This document shows positions 1-20,846 of a DNA stretch of 21,223 bases, piece by piece. The notes below the pieces were generated by a model. The model worked only from the letters and a program-made list of their open reading frames with translations. It did no database searches and was not told the origin of the DNA. The position numbers and the translations under genes were made by a program. Every line of letters begins with the position of its first letter. Positions within the stretch are counted from its first letter, which is position 1. The DNA is from a virus: positions 1-21,223 of IMG/VR virus record IMGVR_UViG_3300036832_000314; one strand, 5' to 3'.

Positions 1-1482
1 TCGCTGCGTCGTTGATTAGGGCTCTCTGAGCTTTTGCGCAGTAGCTGGCGGCCCATTCGAACGATGGCGACGGTGATGCAGTCTCGAACGCCATCACCGA
101 CGTAATCGCGTAGTTGTACTGGTCGCCCCACAGAACAAGGTCTGGATATTCACCTCGGAACGCACCAAACAAATGTCCGAAGAGCTGGCGGGCCCAACCC
201 CATCTTCCAGAATCGCTGAACCCGAATTCGTTGTTCCAATCAAACAAGGTCTGCGAGTCCAGATAGCTCAGCGCGACGTATTCGAACGGTGTCTCGCCGA
301 GATTAGCGATCGCGTTCGTCCAGACCGGAGTGCCAGCGCCGCCATGCATGAAGCCTGCTGGCCCCGGCGGTCCGGTAAACGTGAGCGCGGCGCCGGAGAG
401 CGTCGTCGCTTGGTTAGTGACGTAAACGCCAGGACCACCTGGCGTTCCTGACGTTTGACTGTTGACATGAGTGCCAGCGGGCACACCAGTCCCGGTGACC
501 GTAGCTCCCATAACAATCGTGCCGACTACTGTACCGCCGACCGTGAGGTTCGTCGTGCCGGTGCTAGTTCCGGTACCGCCGGTCGCCGTTGTTCCCGTTC
601 CTTGCGGCAACGTAAGCTGGATCCCAGGCGGCAGCTGCTGACCACCACGCCCGCCGTAGTAGTTTATCGTGACGTTGATCTCATTCCCGTTCACACCTTT
701 GAACGTGCAAGTGAGATCGACCTCGCCAGGAGTTGCGGATTTTACGGCAGTGACCGGGATGTAAGGATTGACCTGAGCGTTGATCGCATCAGTGATCTCT
801 TGCGCGACCTGATCGAGGGTGTCGGTCGAACCCACATTGACCGGGACGTAAGTGCCGGCAACGTAGAAATGCAGCGTGCCGGCTGCTGTCGGCGGCATAG
901 TGATTACGATCTTGCCGGTAGACGCTGTGCCACCAGCTGGCTGAGAAACTGGGAGACCCCAGACCTCATTGGCGAAGTTCGATTGGTAGAACGCACGGAA
1001 CATCCGCGCGAGCTCGGACTGAGGACCGAAGAACTGCTCGGCCATCGCCAGCGAGCCGATTGGCACCGCAACATCCATCGGCTGCGTGCCATCTGGCGTA
1101 GCCGTTCCTACCAACAACGCACGCAGGTTGATGGTCGGAAGACCGGCCATCGAGGGATCTACTTCAACCCAGTATCTTTATGTTCGCGACAGTTCGCTAA
1201 GCTGTTGCCGTCTTTCGACTGCTGCATATTCCTATGCAGAACAGACTATATCATCATCCCTTTTGGGGGAGCCGGGCGCTTCGGGCCGCTTGGCCCTACG
1301 AGCTTTCGCTCTAGTCGTTGCACCTTCACCAACTATTTGTTGGTGCTTGGCTCAGGATTGGCCGGTCTGGCGTTTCCCTGAGTTCACCCGGTTGTTCGAT
1401 CCCGATTGCTCGGGAAAGCGCCTAACTAATTGTTCAGCGGAACTTTGATATTCTGGGGGATGTCACTAAAGCTGATAGGCAT
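1..1482 (-). CDS. Tail sheath protein (Mu gpL-like), split by a group I intron; 3' end outside window
   Basis: Contractile tail sheath subunit. Exon 1 is 1482-1436 (MPISFSDIPQNIKVP plus CT) and exon 2 is 1175-1, open to the edge of the window. Joining T1436 to A1175 gives PLYWVEVDPSMAGLPTI, the usual start of Mu-type sheaths (compare VPLFYAEVD in family members, from memory). About 407 residues are visible out of an expected 480-570. Later family-like stretches include GVNGNEINVTINYYGG and ETPFEYVALSYLD. Residues about 209-293 are an extra Gly/Thr-rich segment (TVTGTGVPAGTHV, GGPGVYV) between the N-terminal and core parts of the sheath, probably a surface-exposed added domain. The start is fixed by AAGGAGG four bases upstream of the ATG. 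The gene follows a DUF2635 gene, as in Mu-like phages. Unspliced mRNA would stop at a TAG three codons past the splice site, so splicing is needed to make the protein. Family assignment is firm; the C-terminus is not seen. Confidence 0.9.
1176..1435 (-). ncRNA. Group I self-splicing intron, subgroup IA-like, without an internal ORF
   Basis: The 260-base intron lies inside the sheath gene. All core helices can be drawn (plus-strand coordinates). P1: exon CGCU 1439-1436 with guide GGCG 1422-1419, ending in the required U.G pair. P2: 1400-1415, six pairs with a GCAA loop. P3: CCGGG 1391-1387 with CCCGG 1276-1272. P4: CUCAGG 1382-1377 with CCUGAG 1356-1351. P6: 1327-1345, seven pairs. P7: GACUA 1316-1312 with UAGUC 1248-1244. 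P8: 1257-1270. P9: 1222-1239, seven pairs with a GGAA loop. Two extra hairpins between P7 and P3, at 1300-1311 (GAAA loop) and 1283-1296, are the P7.1/P7.2 mark of subgroup IA. Consensus blocks AATCCTGAGCCAAG (Q) and GATATAGTC (S) are present. The 3' end is G1176. An alternative 3' site after ACTG (G1170) is also in frame but would delete two residues (YW). No homing endonuclease is encoded inside. Confidence 0.92.
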
Positions 1483-1566
1483 GGATCCTCCTTCCCGCAA
1501 CCGCGGGGGTTTTGCCTGATCGTTTGCGAGTGGAGGGGCTTTTAGGCGCGCGCCCCGAAGCGCGTT
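1483..1566 (-). promoter_or_regulatory. Sheath leader: strong ribosome binding site preceded by hairpins
   Basis: This 84-base gap lies between the DUF2635 stop and the sheath start. A full Shine-Dalgarno AAGGAGG (1493-1487) sits four bases from the ATG. Directly upstream is a hairpin CCCGC-loop-GCGGG (1494-1507), and further upstream a GC-rich block holding the palindrome GGCGCGCGCC (1545-1554) and a possible GGGGC/GCCCC stem. Read on the plus strand, the first hairpin is followed by GGTTTT and looks like a weak intrinsic terminator. In the sense of the operon it may instead protect the mRNA or expose the ribosome site. The function is inferred; the sequences are visible. Confidence 0.45.
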
Positions 1567-3589: not shown

Positions 3590-4236
3590 TAGACTTGGAA
3601 TCGAACGTAATGCATCAGTAATGCATCGATGGCCCCCATGGCACCGCCTGCGCTGGCTGCGGCCTTAAAGAATGCGAGCGGGTCGTAGAACATGACTCGC
3701 GCCTCTTTGTGCGAAATAGATCGAATGCCTGATGTTTGCATTCGCATCGCCAGTGCGCGCATCTCCCAGATCACGAGTTCGGTGGCCTGCTTGAGCGCCT
3801 GCAGCGACGGGCGCGGATCCGTGGGCAGATCAAAGCCGCCGGTGTAGGTCACGAGGATGGGCTGCGGTGCGGCCGTGGCGAACGACCCGATCAGCTCGAG
3901 CTTGCCGCTGCGTTCCTCGAGCAGCCAGTCTGATGGATCAATCGGAGTGCCTTGCGGCGATTCCACGCCCTCGATGTCGGATGCCTTAGTCGGCCAATGG
4001 CTGAGATAGATCCGGTTCGAGCTCAGGCCAGTCCAGAGTTCACTCAACGTCTCCGTGGCAAAAATGCGATTGCATTTAACCGACACGGTATCGGACGCGC
4101 GCGTGATCCATTGCGCCATCTGAATATCGTTGGTCGTATCGGTGGTCGGAATGCCGAGCGTGATCTTCAATTCGTCCAGCGTCAGCAGATCGTAGGACGT
4201 CGCCGGCGTGATGATGGTCTCAACGGTATCAACCAT
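3589..4236 (-). CDS. gp6-like head-tail connector protein
   Basis: 215 residues. The start [17 protein letters not shown] and [21 protein letters not shown] match the opening helices of phage gp6-like connectors (consensus LxxLKxxLxI...D..I...I..A...I...), which form the ring under the portal. After a beta insertion (LTYTGG-type: [10 protein letters not shown], about residues 128-138) come helices [20 protein letters not shown] and a C-terminal part with [17 protein letters not shown]. It is longer than the usual 100-120 residue gp6 and closer to the 190-220 residue form found in many proteobacterial prophages. It overlaps the collagen-like gene upstream by 8 bases and the AT-hook gene by 1 base. 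The family is recognised from sequence pattern and position. Confidence 0.75.
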
Positions 4237-5758
4237 CGGCTTCCTCGTGGAATTGTTCGAACAGCGCGCGCAGCTCGAGCACCGGGCCTTCGTTGCCGTC
4301 GCTCAGCAGTGGGACGGCGCGATAGTTTTTGCCGTCGATCTTCCAGCTGACGATGCCGACGCCAGGCGGGCCCTGTTCGCCCTTTTCGCCGCGATCGCCA
4401 GGCTTGCCGCGATCGCCCTGGACACCGTGCGCGGTGATGAGCTGCCAGCCCTCACCAGGGCAATTGCCGGGATTGTCGACCTTGGCGATGAAGGCGCCGC
4501 GATCGCGGGCGACGATGTCGAGCCGCTTGTAAGTCTGATCCATGGCAAAGGTGCCGCGCACGATCGGCGTGAGACCATCGGCGCCGTCCTTGCCGTTCTG
4601 ACCATCCTGGCCTGGGGCGGCGAGGCAGACCCAATCTGGGTGCGGCGGCGTCTTCGCGGTGTCGGCGATCGCCTGGTAGAGGCCGCCGGCATGCGTGACG
4701 ACGTCGCCATCGTAGTGCACCGCGTCCGGCGTGAAGGCTTTTACCCGCGGCAGTTTCCCGGGTACGCCTTGGTCGCCCTTCTCGCCTTTCTCTCCTCGAG
4801 TTCCAGTCTCGCCGGCGCCGCCGCGCAAACCTTGTGGGCCTTGTGGACCCGGCGCGCCTGGCCGGCCGTCGCCCCCGCGCTCGCCTGGCATCCCGCGCGC
4901 GCCCTGCTCCCCGGGCAACCCTCGCTCACCCTGGATCCCGGGGATCCCCTGCGCTCCTGGCACGCCTGGCGCACCTTTAGCGCCGTCCTGGCCGCGTTCG
5001 CCGGCGAGGCCTGGCTCACCAGTCGCCCCGGTCTCGCCGCGCTCACCACGCGCGCCCTGAGGCCCGGGAGCCCCGGTCTTACCCGGATTGCCCATGAGAC
5101 CCGTCATCCCGCGCTCGCCGGGCGGGCCCTGCACACCTTGCTCACCCTTCGCTCCCCGCTCCCCCGGCAAACCCTCTGGCCCCGGAAGTCCGGTCAAACC
5201 ATCCTTGCCGCGCTCACCTGGCGGACCTTGCTCTCCGCGCTCGCCTGGCGCCCCGGGCACGCCAATGTCTCCGCGGCCGCCTTGCGGGCCCGGAGCTCCA
5301 ACGTCACCGGGCGGCCCCATGCGCCCGATCAAACCGCGCTCGCCTTGCACCCCCTGCAGACCCTGCTCCCCTCGAGCTCCGGTCTCGCCTGTCTCACCGC
5401 GGTCGCCGGCGACGCCTTGCGGGCCCGGCAAACCTAATCCTGGACGTCCACGCTCGCCCTGTGGGCCGGGCGGGCCCGGCTCTCCAGGCAACCCATCGCG
5501 ACCATCGGCGCCATTGTGAAGGCCGGCCAGGCGCTCTTCCACCAGGGTCCTGACCGTGCTGCTCCAGGACATGATTTCGGCGCGGAGCTCTGCGCGGAGC
5601 TCGGCCATTGTGAGCGCACGCTCACGCGACCACTGATGGCGCTCCTCTTCGAGCACCTGGCCGAGGGCTAGCCGAAATCCGTCAAGGACGGAGAAGTCGG
5701 CGTCGTCCGATTCGATCTGCTGCGGCCCGGATCCGTTGGAATTCTCGCTGGGCGTCAT
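4229..5758 (-). CDS. Collagen-like repeat virion protein with CBM-like modules
   Basis: 509 residues from the ATG at 5758; a longer reading from 5845 adds a basic Arg/His-rich stretch that is only the portal gene read in another frame. Residues about 20-80 form a charged helix (coiled-coil candidate: [18 protein letters not shown]). Residues about 83-334 are roughly 83 Gly-X-Y triplets with a single slip (GRPGLGLPG); GER, GPQ, GPP and GAP are frequent. Then comes a module [17 protein letters not shown]...PPHPDW, like a CBM5/12 carbohydrate module, a short collagen patch, a second similar module ([17 protein letters not shown]...GEGWQL), another collagen patch and a C-terminal beta-rich end. 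It is likely a trimeric fibre on the head or neck, by analogy with other phage collagen-like fibres. The 77-base overlap with the portal gene is long, so the start is the least certain part; an ATG at 5608 is an alternative. Confidence 0.8.
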
Positions 5759-7106
5759 CGGGCTTTGCCTGTGGTTGTGGTTTAGCGGGTGCCGCTGGCG
5801 GTGCTGCAGGCGGCGCATGCGGCGCGGGCGCTGCAGGAATTGCATTGGCGGCGCTCAATGGGACGACTTGTTGTTGGACTCTGGGCTCGCTGCCTGCCTC
5901 GACCGAATCCATCCCCTCTTCATTTCTCGCTTCATTCGGGCTGTACACACCGCCCTGAACACCGCGCACGAGTCCTTCGATCCGGTCTTTGTATGCAGAG
6001 CGCAGCAGCACCTTGGTATCGAACTCTGCCCATTCGTCGGGCTGGCCTTTCAGATTAAACAAACATCCGAACGCCTCTTCCACGTGCGACAGCGCAAAGC
6101 CAAGCCCGGTCGCAATCCACTCCTGCATCATGATTTCAGTGTTGCCGTGCGGAGCGCCTCCGAGGCCGAGGATCTGCAGCGGCACGCGATAGACCAGCGC
6201 GATATGCTGCTCGGTGAACTTCAACACGTCGGCGATCGCCGCGTCGCGTCCGAGAATGGTCCATGGTTGGACTTTTAAACCGGCGGTGAGAATTGGCGTC
6301 CCTCCCGCCTGCAGCAACTTTGTTTGCTCATTCCATCGATCGCGTAGGTGTTGGACCTGCTCCTTATCCAGCACGAGGTCAGTCGACAGCACGGCAGAAG
6401 GGCGCGCCTGATTGTTATAGAAGCCGAGCTGCTGTGAGATGATCGCCGACTGGGTCGCCACGTCGGTCATCGCAGCCATCAACGGGCTCTCGCCGACCAG
6501 CGGAAACGGCCAGCGTGACCGCGCGGTGTGCAAACGCATATGCAGCACATCGCGTTGCGGCACTATGACCGGCTGTTCGCCCAGCCGATAGTTGACCACA
6601 TGGTTGCCAGCGAGCCGATAGAACACATCGCCGGTGGTCGTGACCTGCGGCCAGCACTGTATCGGGTTCATCACGTGCAGTTCGTTGATTTCGAACCGCT
6701 CGTTTCTCACCGCGAGCGCGTATGCATTTCCATCCAGATACATCATGCGAACCATGTTCAGCATGAAGTCGGAAATCGATTGGTAATCGTTGGGCCTTTT
6801 CAAAATGCGCGAGAGCGCCGAGTTGGTGACGCGAGTGCGGCCACCTTTTTCGTTCGCGCGCCAGTGCGCGCCCGGACACATGGCAACCGTTTGTGAGTAG
6901 GCCGACACGCATGCTTCAACAATTGCGGACTGTGCGTCCTGCGGGATCGGCATCCCGCCCATCTGCCACCAATTCCACCAGCTGCCGACTTCGGTTGGAA
7001 GCCAGCCGCCGGTGATTGGTAATTGCCACGGTCCAGGCGTGTAGTCGCCGTCCGCTTTGCGGCGGAAGCGGTCGACCACACGCGACAGGACCGCAGGAAC
7101 ACGCAT
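5682..7106 (-). CDS. Portal protein, HK97 type
   Basis: 474 residues. It forms the dodecameric portal ring for DNA packaging and exit. Family-typical segments include [18 protein letters not shown] near the N-terminus, [67 protein letters not shown], the stem/crown region with [19 protein letters not shown], and [16 protein letters not shown] at the end of the core. The last 55 residues are Pro/Ala-rich and then basic. Length and order fit the Phage_portal (HK97) family. It lies downstream of the capsid gene rather than just after the terminase, unlike the common terL-portal-protease-capsid order. It starts 6 bases after the stop of the small upstream gene and overlaps the collagen-like gene at its 3' end. 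Confidence 0.92.
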
Positions 7107-7491: not shown

Positions 7492-10032
7492 TCACGCCCA
7501 AGTCGGACTGGTCAGCGTGGCGACCATGCCGGCGCGTCGGTAGATCCAATTCGCTTGCATGATCATGCGAACGCCGATAGTGTCCGTCTGCCAGAGCGAC
7601 CGCGTCGGTGAAGCGACCGTCCCTGGTGAACCACTCGCAATCGCCAGCGGCGTCGTGTCCTCCATGTGTAGGACAGCTTGGTCTGATACGTCGAACCGCG
7701 GAGCCGCTTCAGTAACTGAAGCAAAATCCGCCGCGTCCAACATCATCACCGTATTTGCTGGAACGACCGTTGACGAAACGATCGGCACGCCATCCAAGGA
7801 ACCGCCGTTAACTTCCTCGCGGAACGGAGTATCGCCGGTCGTAGTGTAGACGAGGCTCGCCGACTTCTTGAGCTGCGGCGTTGTGATGAAGACCGGAGAG
7901 CGGATGTTATCGTTGGTGATCGCTTGCAGAGCGCCCCACAGTGCCTTGAGATCGCCCAGCATCGCCATGACCGGAGCAGTGCCGGCGGCAGTCGGGGGCA
8001 CCACTGTTGCACCCAGTCGCAGGCCTGCAGGTCGGATGACGGTCGCCGGATTGGCGTCGAGTAAGACGGAATCCAGCGCGACACCGGTATCACGAAGGAT
8101 CGCTTCACGAATTAATCCTTCGATGGCCGGCGTACTGTGCTCGCTCAGTTCGCGAGTAAATGTGCTGATCACAGCCATCTTTTTTGGCGTGAGTTGCACT
8201 GTCGCGAATTGCCCTTGGCGCACGGGTATTGGAGCGCCTTCGCCGACGAAGGATCCGCCGAGCGATGGCGTCCCAAGACGCATTGGGAGATTGATCACGC
8301 CGTTGCGGCCGAACGTAAACTGCGAACCGCGTGACGCGACAGCTGGGTAGACCGAATGGGGGAGCAATGCGTCGATGAAATCCATCCACACTTGCGTAAC
8401 CAATTCAGCTGCCCATCCCGCCTGTGGGATTGTCGCCGGCGCCGAGGCCGCACGTGTGATCATTGCCATCACGCCGCGCGTGCGTTCGTCTTCGCCGTAT
8501 TCCTCCTTCACGATCTCGAGGATCGGCCGCTTCTGCTGCTCGGTGTGGTGCTTGAGCTGACAGGTCAGCGAGCGCCACAAGTAATCGAGCGGCGTGATCT
8601 TCTTCTCCGGTGCCGCCCAGGCCTTCCCACTGGGCGAATTGCGCACGACCAGAGCACGCGATGTATCATGACCATTACCGTTCGGCTTCTTGTCGTCACC
8701 GTCGGGCTCGATCATCTGGTGCTTGACGAGACGCGCCTCGGCAGCTTTCAGGGTGTCGAGTAGTAGTTCCTCCTGCGCGACTTTCGCGGTGAGGTCTTTC
8801 GTCTTCTGCATATCCTCAGGGGAGGCGGTCTCGTCAACGATCTTGCCGAGATGCTCAGTGAGGTCGTCACGATAACGCACCAGCCGCTGCTCTGAGTCGG
8901 GGATGCGTTGTCCAAGCATTCCTGTCATCGGTTTATCTTTCGATGAATGGTGAGTGGCGGCAGGCTTGCCGGTGAAACCGCGCCGAGTAACCCCGTCCGT
9001 CCTGCCAGGCTTGGCAAAGACAAGGTCGATCGTTGCGGGCGAAACGTTGAGCGACTTTGCGACGGCGAGCGCATTTGGGTTCGCTGGCACAGCCACTAGG
9101 GACGTCTCAACGAGTTCTTGTTTGTGGAAGCGTTGACCGCTCCACGGATCTTTCGGATTGAGTGGGCTATGATCGAGCGGGCGGAAACCGACCGACACGG
9201 CCTTCAGGATTCCGGCCTCGACCAATTTGCGGATTTCGTTGATGCGCGGCGAGGTGCCCTTGGGGGCCAACTCAAGGTGCCCGCGCAGCTGATTGCCTTC
9301 GATGCGCAGCCGGTGCCACCGACCTACAATAAAATCTGGATGGTGATTGAATAATGCAATCGGATTGGATTTGAACGATTCAAGCTCCCAGCCCCCGGCC
9401 TCGATGATATCGCCCATCCTGTCTGGGGTGTCGTCGGATAGCACGTACTCAGCGCCATTCACCTCGCCGACGTGGGTCTTTTGCAAAACCTTCTTGGGAT
9501 CAATCTTGCGCTCTTCCATATCGTCCTCGCCGCCGCCGCCGTTGCCGTAATTGTCCCAAATGAGCTCGCAGGTTTCTTCGGGCAGATCCTGCAGACAACG
9601 ATCATAAAAATCGTCTTCGCTCTCGCCTTCCTCTGGCCGAATGCGATAGTCGTCGTCTGGTCCGAATTCCTGTTTGTGTCTCGCGCGAGGATTGCCGTGC
9701 AGCCCGACAGGATTGCCGTGGACTTGGCTTTCTTCCCAGACTATCGAGCACTGATCTGTGGCGCGCTCCTCGGTCACGTCTGGATCTTTCATTGCGTCAG
9801 GCACGCAACGGGCCAAAAAGGTTTTGAAATCTTCGCCTTTCTTTGGTGGTTGCACAGAGAGCGCCGCAGCTTTGTCCTTTGGCTCAGGCTCACCCTTGGC
9901 GTCACGCCAGGTACTCAGACAAATCGCGACGCATTGATCTTGTGGCCGCTTTCCATCCTGCATAAGTTCACTGACACAATCGTGCATAAACTCAGACTGG
10001 GTTTCGTCTTTTTTTGGTTTTCTGATAGGCAT
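7492..10032 (-). CDS. Prohead protease-major capsid protein fusion (HK97 fold)
   Basis: 846 residues. Residues 1-171 carry three copies of a Cys/Trp motif: FMHDCVSELM...QCVAICLSTW (15-42), FLARCVPDAM...DQCSIVW (72-99) and FYDRCLQDL...CELIW (142-159). Residues 172-345 are a U35-type prohead protease: MEERKIDPKK start, catalytic His in ALFNHHPDF (230/231), Ser in GILKAVSVGF (280) and the closing ETSLVAVPANPNA. Residues 369-846 are the capsid protein: a helical delta region (369-500), then SFVGEGAPIPV, QLTPKKMAVIST, LLDANPATVIRPAGL and LHMEDTTPLA...SPTRSLWQT. AGGAGG lies six bases before the ATG at 10032. Internal ATGs at 9519 (M172) and 8928 (M369) match the usual starts of separate protease and capsid proteins, so extra products are possible. 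The protease would be expected to cut itself and the delta domain away from the shell protein. Confidence 0.9.
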   Translation of the reverse strand: MPIRKPKKDETQSEFMHDCVSELMQDGKRPQDQCVAICLSTWRDAKGEPEPKDKAAALSVQPPKKGEDFKTFLARCVPDAMKDPDVTEERATDQCSIVWEESQVHGNPVGLHGNPRARHKQEFGPDDDYRIRPEEGESEDDFYDRCLQDLPEETCELIWDNYGNGGGGEDDMEERKIDPKKVLQKTHVGEVNGAEYVLSDDTPDRMGDIIEAGGWELESFKSNPIALFNHHPDFIVGRWHRLRIEGNQLRGHLELAPKGTSPRINEIRKLVEAGILKAVSVGFRPLDHSPLNPKDPWSGQRFHKQELVETSLVAVPANPNALAVAKSLNVSPATIDLVFAKPGRTDGVTRRGFTGKPAATHHSSKDKPMTGMLGQRIPDSEQRLVRYRDDLTEHLGKIVDETASPEDMQKTKDLTAKVAQEELLLDTLKAAEARLVKHQMIEPDGDDKKPNGNGHDTSRALVVRNSPSGKAWAAPEKKITPLDYLWRSLTCQLKHHTEQQKRPILEIVKEEYGEDERTRGVMAMITRAASAPATIPQAGWAAELVTQVWMDFIDALLPHSVYPAVASRGSQFTFGRNGVINLPMRLGTPSLGGSFVGEGAPIPVRQGQFATVQLTPKKMAVISTFTRELSEHSTPAIEGLIREAILRDTGVALDSVLLDANPATVIRPAGLRLGATVVPPTAAGTAPVMAMLGDLKALWGALQAITNDNIRSPVFITTPQLKKSASLVYTTTGDTPFREEVNGGSLDGVPIVSSTVVPANTVMMLDAADFASVTEAAPRFDVSDQAVLHMEDTTPLAIASGSPGTVASPTRSLWQTDTIGVRMIMQANWIYRRAGMVATLTSPTWA

Positions 10033-10059: not shown

Positions 10060-10551
10060 ATGCTAACTGCGCGGCGATTGCGAGAGCTGCTGGATTACAA
10101 TCAAAGAACCGGGCGCTTTATCTGGCGTGTGAACCGACAAGGACGTTGGGGGCGCGTTGGCGCTAAAGCTGGAACGATCAAAAGCAACGGCTACCGGCAA
10201 ATCTGCATTGATCAGGATATTTATTTGTGCGGTCGATTAGCGTGGCTGTGGATGACGGGGCGATGGCCGAAAGTAACCGTCGATCACATCAACTGTATCA
10301 AGGCCGACGACCGCTGGTGCAATTTGCGTGAGGCCACTCATTCACAGAACGGCGCGAACCAACATGATCGAAAGAGCCGTGTGCCGTTCAAGGGCGTGAC
10401 GTGGGTCAGTAGGGATAAAAACTATCAAGCGGCCATCCGCATCAACTATCGCACGATCACTCTCGGTCGCTTCGATACTCCTGAAGCCGCCCACGCGGCC
10501 TATCGCAAAGCCGCTAGAAAGCATTTCGGCGAGTTCGCTAGGTTCTCATAA
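10060..10551 (+). CDS. HNH homing-type endonuclease with AP2 DNA-binding domain
   Basis: 163 residues from the ATG at 10060, chosen because AAGGGGA lies eight bases upstream and the protein starts with the usual RLRELLDYNQRTGRFIWR of this family. The frame is also open upstream to 9472 but that part is antisense to the capsid gene. HNH core: VTVDHINCIKADDRWCNLRE with D75-H76 and N88, then HSQNGAN (N97, N100). Residues about 105-155 form an AP2 domain (FKGVTWVSRDKNYQAAIRIN...TLGRFDTPEAAHAAYRKAA). It would cut double-stranded DNA at a specific site and promote its own copying. It is the only gene against the direction of the operon and overlaps the 3' end of the methyltransferase gene by 14 bases, as expected for an inserted mobile gene. 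It could act in trans on the intron site in the sheath gene, but nothing here proves it. Confidence 0.92.
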   Translation: MLTARRLRELLDYNQRTGRFIWRVNRQGRWGRVGAKAGTIKSNGYRQICIDQDIYLCGRLAWLWMTGRWPKVTVDHINCIKADDRWCNLREATHSQNGANQHDRKSRVPFKGVTWVSRDKNYQAAIRINYRTITLGRFDTPEAAHAAYRKAARKHFGEFARFS

Positions 10552-19674: not shown

Positions 19675-19782
19675 TCACGTCATCGTGCACAGGTAGAGCT
19701 CGGTTGCGATCAGCAGCGCCAGCGCAATCAGCAGCAGCACCTTGACCAGCAGTGGCCACAGCCGGTCGTCGTCCTCAATCAC
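19675..19782 (-). CDS. 35-residue single-span membrane peptide
   Basis: A GTG start at 19782 overlaps the capsid-like gene's TGA (GTGA). The peptide reads VIEDDDRLWPLLVKVLLL, then IALALLIATELYLCTMT. It has an acidic N-terminus and one hydrophobic helix. It ends 3 bases before the glycine-rich gene. Like the 32-residue peptide, it is a tiny membrane protein placed between structural genes, coupled by stop-start overlap. Its function is unknown; a start at a GTG without its own ribosome site makes translation depend on the upstream gene. Confidence 0.55.
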   Translation of the reverse strand: MIEDDDRLWPLLVKVLLLIALALLIATELYLCTMT

Positions 19783-20846
19783 CACGCGGTGATGCCGGAC
19801 ATCCACGCAACCGCTGCCGGATCGCGGAGCGCCCAATTAAGGGCGAACCGCACCTTCAGCCCCACGCTGCGCGTCTGCCACAACGACCTTGTCGGCGAGG
19901 CCACCACGCCAGGCGAGCCACTGATCGGCAACGGATTCGCCCCTTCCATGTGCACTGTGGCGTCGCGGCTCGCGCTGATCTGTGGCGCGCCGTCGGTCAC
20001 CGTGACCAGACCCTGCTGCCCCACGCATACGACTTGATCATCGGGGATCTGGTTGGACGGCATGATGTCAACGTCGCGATACGGTGCACCTTCCGTGAGC
20101 AAATACCAAGCAGACCGCAAATACACGTTAGTGGCCCTGGCTGGGCTCATGACGAATGCGATCCGGCCGCCTACATGCGAGACAATGCCGGCGAGTTTTG
20201 ACATATCGGCAATCATCCCCTCGTTGCCGGTGGCCGTGCTGGGCGTGATCCCGGCAATCCCGTTGCGCAGCCCTGGCGGCCGGTTGGCGGTCGCAGGGTT
20301 GGCGTCGAACATCACCGCATCAGTGGCGATGCCGATCGAACGCGTCAGGACGTCCCGCACATAGGCCTCGGCGTTGGACGCCTCGAGCAGCTCCTCCGTC
20401 AGGACCACAATCGATGAAAGCTTTTTCGGCGTCATCGACGCGCCGCTGTCCTGCAGCTGCACGACCGGGATCGGCGCGCCTTCTCCAACGTACGCGGTCG
20501 CCACGGCCGTCGCCGCAAAACTGGGCACCGAGACGTACGCCGCACCGTCGAAGGTGAAGCTCGGCGAATACTGGATCAGCCGCGCGCTCGCCGAGTAGGG
20601 CGTCATTGCCTCGATGAGTTCCGCGACCACGATCTTCGCTAGCGGGGCGGTCGTGCCAATGCCGGCCGGCGGTTCGCTTGAGGCCTTCACAATCCAATCG
20701 GCCACCTCGTCGTCGGGCCACTTCTGGCGCAGGAAGTCCGCTGGCTCGATGCCCTTGCCATACTGGGCGCGCGCGGTCGCAATGCAGGCCCGCACGACCG
20801 AATTGACCAGGCGCTCGCGGGTCGGGATCTTTGCCGGGAAGGTCAT
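19779..20846 (-). CDS. Second HK97-fold capsid protein (paralogue of the major capsid domain)
   Basis: 355 residues, ATG at 20846 with GAGG about six bases upstream. It shares a clear series of motifs with the capsid half of the fusion protein: YVGEGAPIPV, SMTPKKLSSIVVLTEEL, VMFDANPATANRPPGLRNG, TVHMEGANPLPI...GSPGVVASPTRSLWQT. It lacks the protease and most of the delta/scaffold part; only about 60 residues (MTFPAKIPTRERLV...WPDDEVADWIV) precede the capsid fold. It could be a second shell or vertex protein (as gp24 is to gp23 in T4), or a remnant of another phage's capsid gene. The reading frame is intact and motifs are conserved, so it looks functional. It is the first gene of the block and follows the repeat-rich leader. 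Confidence 0.85.
   Translation of the reverse strand: MTFPAKIPTRERLVNSVVRACIATARAQYGKGIEPADFLRQKWPDDEVADWIVKASSEPPAGIGTTAPLAKIVVAELIEAMTPYSASARLIQYSPSFTFDGAAYVSVPSFAATAVATAYVGEGAPIPVVQLQDSGASMTPKKLSSIVVLTEELLEASNAEAYVRDVLTRSIGIATDAVMFDANPATANRPPGLRNGIAGITPSTATGNEGMIADMSKLAGIVSHVGGRIAFVMSPARATNVYLRSAWYLLTEGAPYRDVDIMPSNQIPDDQVVCVGQQGLVTVTDGAPQISASRDATVHMEGANPLPISGSPGVVASPTRSLWQTRSVGLKVRFALNWALRDPAAVAWMSGITAW

Follow-up and report, generated by a model that had tools for sequence, protein, structure and literature searches.

Positions 1435 to 1176 of the window, on the minus strand, form a full-length group I intron that is very probably removed by splicing from a phage tail sheath gene, as judged from the sequence and its relatives. 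The window is a 21,223-base IMG/VR record that was analysed at its full length. We assign the intron to group I because of its Rfam score, the in-frame splicing of the flanking exons, the existence of intron-less relatives and the presence of introns at the same site in divergent phages. The intron itself is a typical representative of a well-known class, and its host gene is absent from the reports searched: a literature search, with most subscription journals outside its coverage, retrieved no report of a sheath gene interrupted by a group I intron. It is a known kind of intron in a new gene and on a new scale.

Boundaries and class of the intron

The sheath ATG lies at 1482, and its frame translates as MPISFSDIPQNIKVPLNN and ends at the TAG at 1428-1426; an earlier note on this DNA, made from the letters alone, had remarked on a perfect ribosome site followed by an immediate stop, and both are present (AAGGAGG at 1493-1487). 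The 3' part of the sheath frame resumes at 1175 on the same strand as (A)TACTGGGTTGAAGTAGATCCC. Joining 1436 to 1175 yields MPISFSDIPQNIKVPL followed by YWVEVDPSMAGLPT, which is the start of a tail sheath protein, and the spliced junction, in codon 16 (CT/A), reads MPISFSDIPQNIKVPL and then YWVEVDPSMAG, the continuation recognised in the earlier note. The spliced frame matched PHROG 165 (tail sheath) with an E value of 1.1e-73, residues 1-213 aligning with profile positions 1-209; PHROGs alone matched, the search against Pfam giving no match. Read-through of the TAG was ruled out because the intron holds many further stops in the exon 1 frame.

The boundaries (1176-1435, 260 bases) agree to the base with those first proposed. 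The accompanying description of a split after the fifteenth codon was right in that 15 whole codons lie upstream, but two bases of codon 16 also precede the intron, which interrupts that codon after its second base. A U closes exon 1 and pairs U.G with the guide, and a G is the last intron base (AAAG at the 3' end). An Rfam scan, a check that had been named beforehand, matched RF00028 at 77.6 bits against a gathering cut-off of 50 (E 1.7e-18), with the match spanning 1445-1222 and the model complete (positions 1-253 of 253); this was the sole Rfam family detected across the whole window. The family model R1, in whose training set the window copy was included, scored the intron at 285.6 bits, and no second intron of the R1 family was found in the window. 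As the earlier note had held, there is no endonuclease frame inside the window intron, 260 nt leaving no room for one. The features are collected in Table 1.

Table 1. Coordinates of the sheath gene, intron and endonuclease features in the window
Feature	Position	Strand	Remarks
Sheath ribosome-binding site AAGGAGG	1487..1493	-	Read from sequence
Tail sheath exon 1 (MPISFSDIPQNIKVP plus CT of codon 16)	1436..1482	-	Final base U, typical of group I 5' splice sites
Group I intron, 260 nt, without internal endonuclease gene (GAACAATTAG...ACATAAAG)	1176..1435	-	RF00028, model R1, covariation
In-frame TAG, 8 nt inside the intron, in the P1 loop	1426..1428	-	Early in-frame stop also found in relatives
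Internal guide sequence GGCG, pairs with exon 1 CGCU (U.G at splice site)	1419..1422	-	
P3 5' strand CCGGGUG (partner 1272-1278)	1385..1391	-	
P7 5' strand GACUA (partner 1244-1248)	1312..1316	-	Covarying U-A/C-G and C-G/U-A pairs
P7.1 (1311-1300) and P7.2 (1296-1283) hairpins	1283..1311	-	Typical of subgroup IA
P3 3' strand CGCCCGG	1272..1278	-	
P7 3' strand UAGUC	1244..1248	-	
P9 hairpin	1222..1239	-	RF00028 match and helix model
Tail sheath exon 2 (A of codon 16, YWVEVDPSMAG...)	1..1175	-	Cut by contig end; L002 carries the continuation
Free-standing HNH endonuclease gene (HNH_3; weak AP2)	10060..10551	+	Candidate trans-acting homing endonuclease

The nearest sheath relatives in cultured phages are of the Mu/SfV type (ST64B, SfV and others), and prophage-like sheath genes from seven Bradyrhizobium genomes showed 56-63% identity across residues 1-407. 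On the strength of these prophage matches, the hosts of the intron-bearing phages would be placed in or near that genus. The intron pattern had zero matches in 85,462 prokaryote species genomes, and model R1 found zero introns in two Bradyrhizobium genomes in a run without a positive control. Residues 225-285 of the sheath form a glycine/threonine-rich insert, and in four loci (L010, L011, L013 and L014) a stretch like these residues lies about 1 kb upstream of the sheath gene.

Conservation of the fold and of guide pairing

The window fold is 4.5 standard deviations more stable than dinucleotide shuffles, none of 200 shuffles being equally stable. Thirteen helices form in the window copy (P1, P2, P3, P4, P5, P6a, P7, P7.1, P7.2, P8, P9, P9.1 and P9.2), in keeping with the earlier claim that the core group I helices pair. 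In a covariation alignment of 80 introns (78 distinct), with P3/P7 written as a pseudoknot, 95.5% of the named-helix cells (P1-P9.2) were paired across the 78 distinct introns and 52 of the 64 helix pairs had changed on both sides, a count reached by none of 500 shuffles; when the partners were slid by 1-3 columns, pairing fell to 31-41%. The P7.1 and P7.2 hairpins, likewise anticipated, were paired in 100% of cells in the 78 introns, with both-sided changes in 8 of their 9 pairs, and as modelled they fit subgroup IA.

P1 was the worst-paired helix of the model-based alignment (59.8%), and because that alignment is poor at P1 we scored this helix directly from the exon sites, which were fixed by protein homology, comparing each guide with its own exon and with the exons of other sites. 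Over 19 site classes the mean run of guide-exon pairing was 4.53 versus 3.32 (sd 0.22) for re-paired sets, and none of 2000 such sets was as high as the observed mean. The P1 call was poor or ambiguous in 2 of the 32 site-resolved introns, namely the L111 sheath intron (2 pairs) and that of L085, where the guide was placed at another G. The exons of the resolved introns join in frame. The guides thus follow their own exons, which is hard to explain unless these introns splice.

In the mechanism that we propose, the sheath gene would be transcribed together with its intron, and ribosomes starting at 1482 would halt at the TAG just inside it, leaving the ribozyme core free to fold. P1 would position the U.G splice site, exogenous guanosine at P7 would attack after CCGCU, and the freed exon 1 would then attack after the terminal G at 1176. 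The ligated exons (CCGCT/ATACTGG) would encode an uninterrupted sheath whose junction peptide spans VPLYWVEVDPSM, including LYWVEV. We infer both the splicing in cells and the route by which the intron spread, the route with less certainty than the intron itself and its removal.

The insertion site in related phages

Eighty IMG/VR loci were fetched with the sheath protein. R1 introns were present in 8 of these sheath-bearing loci and absent from 72, and the intron-less sheath genes among them carry an unbroken KVPLYWVEVDPSMAG or a close variant across the junction. Introns at exactly the same site (CCGCT/ATAC or CCGCT/ATAT) were found in seven contigs, six with divergent sheaths (L003, L004, L005, L013, L149 and L156) and one, L002, with an identical sheath; L149 and L156 were found through the intron and not through the sheath protein. 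The same-site introns are 73-89% identical in nucleotide sequence, while exon 2 further in is 47-62% identical (78% for the window and L003) and the 150 bases upstream of the gene 42-55%, the close pair of the window and L003 excepted. An intron more alike than exon 2 and the upstream region is expected if the intron moved laterally, although part of its higher identity may reflect constraint on the ribozyme and not transfer.

An intron lineage in virion genes

A search pattern taken from the intron core, in the choice of which the host gene was disregarded, matched 88 IMG/VR stretches. Model R1 gave 113 matches among the 80 loci listed and 9 more in eight further loci. We assessed 108 related introns for their host gene, of which 82 were distinct after clustering at 97% identity, assigning the genes by clustering and by PHROG scans of representatives. 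Major capsid genes of several families hosted 41 of the distinct introns, sheath genes 20 and tail tube genes 14; the rest lay in genes for other head proteins (2) or terminase (1) or were unassigned (4). Virion genes therefore host at least 77 of the 82, and the earlier opinion that a sheath gene is an unusual location does not hold within this family, for which such genes are the usual target. This preference runs against the usual pattern, and it can be tested whether gene role, expression, conservation or a nearby endonuclease target decides where the introns lie. In metagenomes, gene callers can overlook the genes for sheath, tube and capsid in these phages, or the genes can seem broken.

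The sheath and tube introns occupy 19 splice positions, about ten in sheath genes and nine in tube genes, and 8 of the 19, among them most of the sheath positions, fall in the segment for about 12 residues around KVPLYWVEVDPS. No family member holds an endonuclease frame, the stretches being 229-328 nt long and the longest Met-started segment 86 aa. Several phages carry more than one intron. L002, whose sheath is 100% identical to that of the window over the shared part, has a second group I intron (5808-6079) in the tail tube gene adjoining the sheath, so that both of its major contractile-tail genes are interrupted. In L156 two introns lie in the sheath gene and one in the tube gene, and L160 (3500-4006) has two tail tube introns around a 27-nt exon, the splicing of both of which would restore the protein. 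Four intron matches fall within an apparently single major capsid gene of L116 (2827-4450, minus strand), and there are three group I intron matches each in L107, L161, L108, L088, L150 and L151.

Comparison with known introns

The T4 td, nrdB and nrdD introns belong to subgroup IA2, reside in genes of nucleotide metabolism and contain endonuclease frames. The window intron has the same overall core with P7.1 and P7.2, and over 43 bases it matches the T-even nrdB region at 88%. The closest DNA matches in cultured phages are the introns of PhAPEC5, CP1, phiB1_1 and similar phages, the best hits covering roughly half to nine tenths of the intron query at about 74-83% identity; unlike the window intron, these lie mostly in or beside DNA polymerase genes, and several have an HNH frame.

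Closer parallels in host gene come from other phages. The intron in tail gene 33 of the mycobacteriophages BAKA and Optimus is 265 bp long, ORF-less and proven by RT-PCR to splice (PMC3706429). By description it resembles the window intron in its lack of an endonuclease gene, its virion tail gene, the U that precedes it and the G that ends it, but its host is a siphovirus tail gene and not a contractile sheath. It has a 156-bp part in common with the intron in the capsid gene of mycobacteriophage LittleE, for which RT-PCR proved splicing in infected cells (PMC3706429). That intron also lies in a highly expressed virion gene, but it is 819 bp long and has a LAGLIDADG-like frame on the other strand. 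Group I introns with reported exon skipping occur in orf142 of Twort, later identified as a tail tube gene (PMC11878797); they are comparable to the two tube introns of L160, although Twort is a Staphylococcus phage with a different gene family and intron set.

Endonucleases, spread and function

The lineage would have spread repeatedly among the capsid, sheath and tube genes of uncultured phages. Because the intron carries no endonuclease, its spread probably depends on nearby free-standing HNH or NUMOD-type endonucleases (collaborative homing, which has been described for ORF-less introns; PMC3984707) or on reverse splicing to new sites. A bolder reading, to which we give slightly less than an even chance, is that a distinct endonuclease-free lineage is confined almost entirely to late virion genes and owes its continued mobility to free-standing endonucleases acting in trans from the same phages; if true, several introns per phage would be expected, as in L002 (sheath and tube), L156 and L116. 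HNH genes lie beside introns in L002 (148 nt from the tube intron; 5118-5660, minus strand, between the sheath and tube genes), L087 (66 nt) and L090 (128 nt) and farther off in L157 (242 nt) and L159 (320 nt), and a NUMOD3-like frame lies 0-11 nt from introns in L093, L124 and L126. With accessory ORFs common to 6 or more loci excluded, an endonuclease gene was found in 3 of the 8 intron-bearing sheath loci (L002, L006 and L013) versus none of the 72 intron-less ones (Fisher p about 7e-4, calculated by hand, with tblastn queries that came from the same phages and few loci). The only HNH gene found in the window is about 8.6 kb from the intron. It is encoded on the opposite strand from the late genes and is flanked by the protease-capsid gene and a methyltransferase-like gene.

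The spread of 19 positions over sheath and tube genes, 8 clustering around the short segment named above, the matching guides and the lack of an endonuclease within the intron would also suit a history in which the introns gained new sites chiefly through reverse splicing of their excised RNA together with recombination, not through endonuclease-driven homing; a case has been made for such spread into heterologous sites by fungal rDNA introns (PMC1299323). We consider it rather unlikely, however, as several of these introns have free-standing endonuclease genes directly beside them, homing accounts better for the same-site copies in divergent phages, and reverse splicing alone leaves unexplained why guides differ between sites.

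The earlier note suggested a tie to cell state, an idea for which the support comes from T4; that splicing acts as a switch by which the growth state or GTP level of the host governs virion production is improbable. T4 intron splicing needs ongoing translation and drops in stationary phase (Sandegren and Sjoberg, as relayed in PMC11878797), early in-frame stops recur in the relatives, and late virion genes are the main hosts of the family; yet the intron is missing from the majority of close relatives (72 of 80 sheath loci), the occurrence of one lineage at many unrelated sites resembles the spread of a mobile element, and the early stop can be explained as a means of keeping the core clear of ribosomes (PMC3984707). 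The patchy distribution and the large number of insertion sites speak more for a mobile element than for a conserved switch.

That the intron is a defunct remnant, with the sheath gene dead or its product made from the ATG at 1149 without exon 1, is very hard to credit: an open frame from that ATG does exist (583 aa for the corresponding frame in L002), but the intron-less relatives checked, in the homologue alignment suggested at the outset, start with the exon 1 residues and not at the exon 2 ATG, no ribosome site is evident before 1149 while AAGGAGG precedes 1482, the core helices and guide pairing are kept with compensatory changes, and the exons of resolved introns join in frame.

Other features of the window

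Two capsid-family genes (PF05065) are encoded on the minus strand of the window at 7492-10032 and 19779-20846, one fused to a prohead protease and the other stand-alone. A gene at 4229-5845, also on the minus strand and situated between the portal and head-tail connector genes, contains long collagen repeats (PF01391).
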